From Bacteroidota bacterium (GTDB lineage: Bacteria; Bacteroidota; Rhodothermia; Balneolales; Balneolaceae), in contig JAQCBZ010000002.1 of assembly GCA_027621355.1 (NCBI GenBank), positions 59,938-123,937 on the forward strand: DNA of 64,000 nucleotides. Direction: 5' to 3'. The notes under the pieces were generated by a model. That model was not told the DNA's origin. It made no database searches and was given only the letters and a program-made list of their open reading frames with translations. Made by a program: the position numbers and the translations under genes. How positions within the stretch are numbered: the first letter of the stretch is position 1; each line of letters begins with the position of its first letter. Shown one piece after another: positions 300 to 3,636 of the stretch.

Positions 300-1205
300 T
301 CACAGTATAGTTGTGGCGAACAGGGAAAGGCTGACAACAAGCCCGTATATCATTAAGACGAGTGCAGATTGTTTAAGCGTTCCATTCAGCAGAGCCTTGT
401 CTTGGTGTGTCCAAATCTGGTGAAGAGGTCTCACCGTGAAAGGGAGTACACCCAGAATCATTAGCGTCCACCATGCTTCAAAGCCACTGGCTACAAAGAG
501 CCATGCATGCACAGCGAGGGCCAAGCCAATCATGAACGTGTATTCAGCTTTTAGAAATCGCTCACCTAGCAACACACCTAAGGTGCGCTTGTGTGCTTTA
601 CGGTCCGTATGAATATCACGTAGGTTATTGGCAACCAATATATTAATGCATAATGCGCCTGTAGAAGATCCCAGCCAAAAGGCGGTCTCTGACCAAATTT
701 GCAGATGAGCATAGGTCGTTCCCATCACAGCAATCACCCCAAAAAAGAGCCATACAAAAAGGTCTCCAAGCCCATTATAGGCTAATGGAAAAGGCCCACC
801 GGTATAAATAATGCCAAAAAACAGTGAGGCGAGACCAATCCATAAAATGGGTGTCCCTGCAATCCAAACCAGGCCAAGACCCGAAGCAAACGCTAGAATC
901 ATGGCGATGACTGTTGCCCATGCCATTTGCGTTGGGGAGATCGCCCCAGAAGTTGTGGGCCGTTCAAAGCCGATGCGGTCGGCATCTGCGCCTGTTTTGG
1001 CATCAAAATAATCGTTGGCAAAATTGGTGCCAATTTGAATGAGACTTGCACTCAAGACAGCCAACCCAAACACAAGCCAAGAAAATCCACCTTCATAGAA
1101 CGCAATGGCACTGCCAATACACACTGGAGTCCATGCAGCGGATAAGGTTTGAGGGCGAGCGGCTTGGACCCAGGACGCTAGGGATGAGGAATCATTTATG
1201 GACAT
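300..1205 (-). CDS. menA: 1,4-dihydroxy-2-naphthoate polyprenyltransferase MenA
   Basis: This integral membrane UbiA-family prenyltransferase joins 1,4-dihydroxy-2-naphthoate to a polyprenyl diphosphate to make demethylmenaquinone. Both metal/diphosphate motifs are present: NDYFD at residues 64-68 (followed by GADADR) and NLRDIHTD at about 194-201 (followed by KRTL). About eight hydrophobic helices are visible. The N-terminal WVQAARPQTL segment is typical of MenA. I start at the ATG at 1205 (MSINDSSS, 301 residues); a TTG at 1232 would add nine residues with no family support. It is followed by menC after 29 bases. Its upstream gap, shared with the divergent glnN, is AT-rich and carries DnaA-box sequences. 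Confidence 0.93.
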   Translation of the reverse strand: MSINDSSSLASWVQAARPQTLSAAWTPVCIGSAIAFYEGGFSWLVFGLAVLSASLIQIGTNFANDYFDAKTGADADRIGFERPTTSGAISPTQMAWATVIAMILAFASGLGLVWIAGTPILWIGLASLFFGIIYTGGPFPLAYNGLGDLFVWLFFGVIAVMGTTYAHLQIWSETAFWLGSSTGALCINILVANNLRDIHTDRKAHKRTLGVLLGERFLKAEYTFMIGLALAVHAWLFVASGFEAWWTLMILGVLPFTVRPLHQIWTHQDKALLNGTLKQSALVLMIYGLVVSLSLFATTIL

Positions 1206-1222
1206 GGTCAAAAATACGGAAG

Positions 1223-1366
1223 TTATCCACAAACGATGATTACGAAGAAAATCAGGTTCTTAATTGATTCGGCATAATCGTTTAGGTCATTCTTTGTCAA
1301 CATTGGCATAAAGCCTAAATAAATAAACTATAAGAATTATAAAACTAAATAATTAACTGTGGATAA
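1223..1366. other. AT-rich gap with two inverted perfect DnaA boxes (possible replication origin element)
   Basis: TTATCCACA lies at 1223-1231 and its reverse complement TGTGGATAA at 1358-1366. Both match the DnaA-box consensus TTATNCACA exactly. Between them is AT-rich DNA; 1316-1356 holds only about four G/C in 41 bases, like a DNA-unwinding element. It fills most of the gap between divergent menA and glnN; the left box lies just upstream of the menA ATG. No dnaA, dnaN, rnpA or gidA gene is in view, and parAB is 33 kb away. It could equally be a promoter region with chance boxes. Confidence 0.35.
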
Positions 1367-1387: not shown

Positions 1388-1418
1388 TTGTTGAAAGTCT
1401 CAAAACACTTTACTTTTG
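1388..1418 (+). promoter_or_regulatory. Bacteroidota-type promoter candidate for glnN
   Basis: TTG at 1388-1390, a 20-base spacer and TACTTTTG at 1411-1418 fit the Bacteroidota promoter pattern TTG-N(17-23)-TAnnTTTG. Transcription would begin near 1424, leaving a leader of about 35 bases before the glnN ATG at 1459. No Shine-Dalgarno sequence precedes that ATG, as is usual in this group. Confidence 0.5.
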
Positions 1419-1458: not shown

Positions 1459-3636
1459 ATGGCTCCTGCTGCTCGTCGTTACGATACCCTCGCCGCCGCA
1501 AAATCAACTGTTCCAAGTCAAGGGATGGTCGACCAAGCAATGTCAATCACCGATATTTTTGGTCAAAATACCCTTACGCTTGACACACTGAAGGCTCGCA
1601 TGCCAAAAAGCACATGGAAAAAGCTACAGAAAACTGTTCAGGAGGGTGAAAAGCTAGATGCAGAGGTGGCGGATGCGGCTGCCATTGCCATGAAAGATTG
1701 GGCCACTGAGAAAGGGGCCACTCACTTTACACACTGGTTTCAACCCTTGACTGGGTCCACAGCAGAGAAACATGACTCGTTTATTACGCCGAACCAAGGA
1801 GGAGGCGCGATTTCGGAATTTTCAGGGAAGGATCTCATTCAAGGAGAGCCTGACGCGTCCTCGTTTCCAAGTGGCGGTCTTAGAGCAACTTTTGAGGCAA
1901 GAGGGTATACCGCTTGGGATCCAACGTCACCTGTCTTCATTATTGAGAATCCCAATGGATCCTACTTGTGCATCCCAACGGCATTCGCCTCGTGGAAGGG
2001 GGAAGCGTTGGATCACAAAACACCATTGCTACGCTCTGTCGAAGCCTTGAATAAATCGGCCAAACGTGCACTCAAGTTATTTGGCGTAGAGGCGGTACGT
2101 GTCACATCTACCGTTGGGTGTGAGCAAGAATATTTCTTGATCGACCAGGAGTTTTTCTACCGCCGCCCCGATTTGATGACCTCTGGCAGAACCCTTGTTG
2201 GGGCCAAACCTCCACGAGGGCAGGAGCTAGATGACCATTATTTCGGGTCTATCCCTGACCGAGTCTTGAGCTTCATGTTGGACGCGGAACGTGAGCTCTA
2301 CAAATTGGGGATCCCGGTGAAAACACGTCACAATGAAGTGGCCCCGTCTCAGTACGAGATTGCCCCCATTTTTGAGCAGTGTAATGTGGCAGCTGACCAT
2401 CAACAGCTCATGATGATTACGCTGCGTCGCGTAGCCAAAAAATATGGCCTTGAGTGTGTGCTTCACGAAAAACCGTTTGATGGAATCAACGGTAGTGGAA
2501 AACATACCAACTGGTCCATCTCAACGGAAGGTGGGGTAAATCTGCTGGAGCCTGGGGAGACCCCGCATCAGAACCTACAATTTTTGTTCTTCTTTACAGC
2601 AGTCTTGCATGGTGTGTATCATCATCAAGACTTGTTGCGAGCATCGATAGCCACGGCAGCAAACGATCACCGCTTGGGCGCAAACGAAGCTCCACCGGCG
2701 ATCATCTCAGCCTATATCGGTGAGCAGCTCGAAGATGTGGTGCATCAGTTACTCAATGGGGGACTCAAAGACTCAATGAAGAGCGGCTTGTTAGGATTGG
2801 GTACGCCCGTTCTACCAACGCTACCAAAGCATGCTGGGGACCGTAATCGTACATCGCCTTTCGCGTTTACAGGTAATAAGTTTGAATTCCGAGCAGTAGG
2901 ATCTAGTCAATCAGTGAGCTTCCCGATCGTGGTTCTAAACACAGCAGTTGCTGAAGGGATTGATGTGTTGAGTGAGAGGCTAGAAAAAGAACTCAAAAAA
3001 TCGAAGCTTGAGACAGCTCTCGGAAAGATTCTAAGGAAGACTCTCAAAGAAATCGAGAGCATCATATTTAACGGCGATGGCTATTCAGATGAATGGCAAG
3101 TGGAGGCAGAGAAGCGAGGTCTTCTCAATATGAAGACCACAGCAGATGCACTCCCTGTATTGGCCGACAAGAAGAACTCTAAGTTATTTAGTACCTACAA
3201 GGTATTGAATAAGAGAGAGTTAGATTCCCGCTTGGAGATTCTGGCTGAGCAATACAACACCACCATTACCATTGAAGTCGACACCACAGAATCCATAGCA
3301 AAAACGATGGTCTATCCAGCAGCGACACGGTACCTGCGAAATTTAGCCCAAGCTGCGGAAGAGGTTAAAGAGCATGGATTGGAGCCAACAGGTACATTAG
3401 ATATGCTCAAAACGGTCAATAATGGAGTGAATGCTCTTGGCGAGGCGCTAGATGGACTACGCAAAGCCCAGGAAAAAGTACCTCACAGCAATGTCCTCAA
3501 GACTGCGAAATACATGCAAACCGATGTAATTCCTGCGATGAATGCGGTGCGTGACGCGGTGGATTTTCTCGAGCGGTATGTCAGTGACGAGCTATGGCCA
3601 CTGCCCGTGTATCGTGAGATGTTGTTTGTGAAGTAG
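1459..3636 (+). CDS. glnN: type III glutamine synthetase GlnN
   Basis: This cytoplasmic enzyme makes glutamine from glutamate, ammonium and ATP. At 725 residues it has the GSIII length, well above GSI/GSII. GSIII landmarks are present: [11 protein letters not shown]-like text ([12 protein letters not shown]) near residue 95, [23 protein letters not shown], the [10 protein letters not shown] substrate/metal segment from residue 344, and [15 protein letters not shown] from residue 402. Start: the ATG at 1459; the first 25 residues are not conserved, so a later start is conceivable. It sits alone inside the menaquinone locus, divergent from menA and tail-to-tail with menB (15-base gap). A TAnnTTTG promoter candidate precedes it. 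Confidence 0.97.

Follow-up and report, generated by a model that had tools for sequence, protein, structure and literature searches.

DnaA boxes outside the origin in other bacteria

DnaA regulates dnaA and the nrd genes elsewhere (PMC8203912, PMC11317965). In Escherichia coli, the DnaA-regulated promoters (nrdA, dnaA, polA, and purH) carry TTATCCACA, and DnaA prefers in vivo two boxes 2–3 bp apart (PMC11317965). In the case of Bacillus subtilis, a few intergenic box regions away from oriC (sda, ywlC, vpr, trmE-noc, and ywcI-sacT) control transcription (PMC4447404). Loci of the datA/DARS type possess several boxes in a fixed array together with an accessory-protein site, and E. coli DnaA is additionally titrated on the chromosome (PMC12371093).

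The locus described here, the intergenic region between menA and glnN, lies in a 64-kb stretch of DNA (the window) from a 1.51 Mb draft genome of 59 unordered contigs, whose closest relative is the uncultured 'Bacteroidetes bacterium UBA1860' and whose other relatives are Balneolaceae. It shares TTATCCACA with the E. coli promoters, and the box set of the window genome likewise includes dnaA and ribonucleotide reductase (RNR) genes; however, menA and glutamine synthetase are absent from the 16 DnaA-bound regions of E. coli (PMC11317965), and the window boxes are single, with near-doubles in some relatives. Like the B. subtilis regions, the sites are intergenic and away from oriC, but the target genes differ from menA and glnN, and the strongest B. 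subtilis regions hold more boxes. Compared with datA/DARS-type loci and their arrays, the gap contains two boxes. These boxes are interpreted here, with a probability of roughly 0.57 and from sequence comparison, as putative DnaA-binding regulatory sites in the divergent menA/glutamine synthetase promoter region, within a small Balneolaceae DnaA regulon that would include dnaA and RNR.

The menA–glnN boxes and their conservation

Two perfect TTATCCACA boxes in opposite orientation, 135 bp apart, are situated between menA (300..1205, minus strand), a UbiA-family prenyltransferase gene by Pfam whose product is by context a 1,4-dihydroxy-2-naphthoate polyprenyltransferase, and glnN (1459..3636, plus strand), a type III glutamine synthetase gene by Pfam. 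Box 1 (1223..1231, plus strand) is embedded in the 11-mer AGTTATCCACA, some 18 bp ahead of the menA start codon. The far edge of box 2 (1358..1366, minus strand) precedes the glnN start by 101 bp, which is the family-typical position (93–108 bp in most relatives). An AT-rich stretch of 41 bases with four G/C (1317..1357) adjoins box 2, and no other 256-bp segment of the window is as poor in GC as the whole gap, which also includes the window's lowest-GC 100 bp. The original prediction had described this pair, the AT-rich gap and stretch, and the two flanking genes, all of which are borne out; it had also called the pair notable against chance, in agreement with the six TTATNCACA matches in the window versus 1.7 expected, and with the occurrence of any box pair within 150 bp in 0.5% of 400 simulated windows.

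The gap thus places a consensus DnaA box in a promoter region whose elements are candidates read from the sequence. On the glnN side, a candidate −7 element TACTTTTG of the TAnnTTTG type (1411..1418, plus strand) and a candidate −33 TTG (near 1388–1393, plus strand) would position box 2 about 20 bp upstream of the latter. On the menA side, the candidate −7 element TATTTTTG (1209..1216, minus strand) is weak, with no −33 element at normal spacing, and box 1 would fall 7–15 bp upstream of it, inside the promoter. Reading the sequence by eye under the E. coli double-box rule, no partner at 2–3 bp was found beside box 1 or box 2; because the window boxes are single and E. coli DnaA prefers doubles, the binding strength at these boxes is uncertain. 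An Rfam scan of the gap gave no structured RNA or riboswitch, the sole match falling far below its threshold.

The 11-mer AGTTATCCACA has six copies in the 1.51 Mb genome, including box 1: two of the others are upstream of dnaA, two upstream of the RNR small-chain gene, and one after a GNAT acetyltransferase gene. Its presence in both the dnaA and the RNR upstream regions connects box 1 with DnaA more strongly than any other finding, and the boxes upstream of dnaA are conserved across the order. The box cluster upstream of the RNR small-chain gene, which carries an ATP cone, is located at L006 2570 and 2679 (C59:4069-4186), and in the relative G004 a box cluster precedes a class II RNR gene (L231 2518-2714). 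Box clusters also exist close to a GNAT acetyltransferase gene, in intergenic gaps of the window genome (L005 2469-2620, C49:54968-55119) and of G004 (L235 2550-2655), one of the clusters holding the double box ATATCCACA-ag-TTATCCACA; such clusters could possibly represent a titration or switch locus.

The sister species retains both boxes, box 2 taking the form TTATACACA, altered only at the free N position. Differences between the two gaps cluster in 20 bases (window 1295-1314), in which the sister (L023) has the palindrome CACCAATAATGGTG and the window the imperfect GTCAACATTGGC; this palindromic stretch is perhaps an operator.

In nearly all Balneolaceae loci with sequence upstream, menA is divergent from glutamine synthetase. 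A TTWTNCACA box within 65 bp upstream of menA and on the menA strand is present in 21 of 49 distinct Balneolales loci, and a menA box accompanied by a second box-like site 157–161 bp away (one mismatch allowed) in 22 of 49; because the loci descend from common ancestors, they cannot be counted as 49 independent trials. The corresponding controls are far lower: 300 letter-permuted motifs of the CC form averaged 0.1 loci with a maximum of 3, the spaced pair averaged 0.4 loci in 200 simulation runs (maximum 3), and the background is 0.01 TTWTCCACA per 300 bp in related sequence totalling 775 kb. On the menA tree, at least nine changes of state are counted for the menA-side box and at least 11 for the spaced pair. 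Approximately half of the 49 loci, and nearly all loci in other families of the order, are without the sites, which counts against the promoter interpretation. The conservation in relatives that the original prediction had proposed to check is present near menA, in the spaced pair, and in the sister species.

In these relatives, TTATCCACA or TTTTCCACA closely follows, on the downstream side, an identifiable menA promoter (TTTTTTAAGC, approximately 14 bp, TATCTTT), and the second site, which is TTATCCACA, TTTTCCACA or more often TTATNAACA, sits upstream of the synthetase promoter. The arrangement is kept with either GSIII or GSII as the menA neighbour. In the window genus, by comparison, box 1 is inverted and displaced, the spacing is 135 bp instead of 157–161 bp, and only the synthetase-side site occupies the family position; this partial presence of the family architecture is a further point against the promoter interpretation. 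Meanwhile, the synthetase beside menA belongs to class II in L025, L026, L031, L053, L061, and L240 and to class III in the window, L030, and L043. Its class switches at least six times on the menA tree, within one genus too (G022 with GSII; G004 and G031 with GSIII), and the change looks like an in-place replacement. In addition, a LacI-type, palindrome-like AAGCGCTT is found in the menA–glnN gap of Balneolales loci that have no DnaA boxes (L084, L089, L094, L095, L098, and L100).

Alternative explanations and the position of oriC

Another regulator, for instance of nitrogen assimilation or growth rate, might recognise a motif (TTWTNMACA) that merely resembles a DnaA box, an explanation considered unlikely. 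The synthetase-side site would suit it: in most relatives this site is TTATNAACA, lacking the C that a DnaA box has at position 6, and it appears mostly as TTATTAACA with extended conserved AT-rich flanks, unlike the boxes at oriC, while the near-constant glutamine synthetase neighbour of menA suggests nitrogen control. The menA-side site points the other way: its CACA is invariant, has a C before it in all 25 pairs, and fits the DnaA consensus. Adjacent tandem boxes in some relatives, such as TTATCCACA-c-TTATTCACA and TTTTCCACA-taa-TTGTCCACA, and the window 11-mer common to the dnaA and RNR upstream regions also argue for DnaA. A GlnR-type operator was sought by eye in the gap and gave no fit; the site departs from the GlnR/TnrA consensus.

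Passive titration of DnaA without a transcriptional role, which any high-affinity boxes would perform to some extent, is improbable here, given only two boxes versus the 12–13 box-like motifs at dnaA and oriC, and given a position relative to both promoters that is conserved in relatives and that titration does not need. Less probable still, one or both boxes could be random matches in the AT-rich DNA of the window genus. TTWTCCACA is only slightly more frequent in the window genome than its reversed-pattern control (57 versus 49), and box 1 differs from the relatives in place and direction; against this stand the rarity of such a pair in simulated windows, the family-typical distance of box 2 from glnN, and the persistence of both boxes in the sister species, although that species is close.

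The suggestion that the gap is itself the chromosomal origin, drawn from its AT-rich stretch and its inverted pair of perfect boxes, can be practically dismissed: in the window genome the skew minimum lies at purM–dtd and boxes are densest there, and in two single-contig relatives both features are found at purM, with menA far from the origin.

The gap upstream of purM, away from dnaA, is the probable oriC of Balneolales. In the window genome this gap, which adjoins dtd there and in G004 (L003 2429-2815; C2:88928-89314), has 13 box-like motifs in 400 bp, compared with 12 in the dnaA upstream region and three in the menA–glnN gap, where a search for weaker boxes was one of the checks proposed in the original prediction. 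It is the densest cluster found in a scan that covered contigs C2 and C8 and the clusters from the genome-wide box list, and at 88.9–89.3 kb of C2 it lies close to a local GC-skew minimum (approximately 92–96 kb). No skew minimum exists at menA–glnN (C8:61.2 kb), and the four-fold-site skew there shifts in the opposite sense. The two regions are alike in their 9-mers and AT-rich intergenic DNA, the latter including a potential unwinding region at menA–glnN, but 12–13 motifs per 400 bp coincide with a skew minimum at purM–dtd, against three motifs and no skew minimum at menA–glnN.

The same position is obtained in the single-contig genomes. In G033 (3.75 Mb), the skew passes from negative to positive with a flat minimum at about 280–320 kb. 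Within the 800 kb sampled, boxes are densest at 320.1 kb, beside purM (318.6–319.6 kb); the origin would be at 0.32 Mb, while menA (2.93 Mb) and dnaA (3.62 Mb) lie elsewhere. In G043 (4.29 Mb), from another family, the cumulative skew reaches its minimum at 268 kb, and boxes are densest at 269.7 kb, immediately upstream of purM (270.2 kb), which would put the origin at 0.27 Mb, with menA at 451 kb. An origin beside dnaA was considered and rejected: although boxes are dense upstream of dnaA too (12 per 400 bp), dnaA of G033 is flanked by mostly negative skew and is off the minimum, and the G043 record begins near dnaA, where the skew is again negative to either side. Having the probable origin at purM–dtd and not beside dnaA bears on where assemblies should start and on the search for DnaA-controlled genes.

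Possible DnaA control of menA and glutamine synthetase

The menA–glnN boxes are probably regulatory and not an origin. Among the origin, titration, and promoter options that had been put forward for the pair, DnaA-controlled promoters are the best supported, through the recurrence across the family and the shared 11-mer, and the origin option falls. DnaA would bind both boxes. By occupying the menA-side box, which closely follows the −7 element in relatives and falls within the probable promoter in the window, it would repress menA; from the synthetase-side box, some 20 bp ahead of the −33 element, it would modulate synthetase transcription. The direction of control in both cases is judged only from box position. 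Bridging of the two sites, which in relatives are separated by approximately 15 helical turns, is conceivable. A stronger version, in which DnaA of Balneolaceae directly links the synthesis of menaquinone and of glutamine to the replication cycle by way of such bridged sites, and in which this control outlasted repeated replacement of the synthetase class, is doubtful. Among the hits listed in literature searches, none described menA or glutamine synthetase as being under DnaA control. The DnaA-controlled promoter interpretation suggests an unreported DnaA target, through which the control of replication may be tied to respiration and to nitrogen assimilation in a phylum that has received little study.
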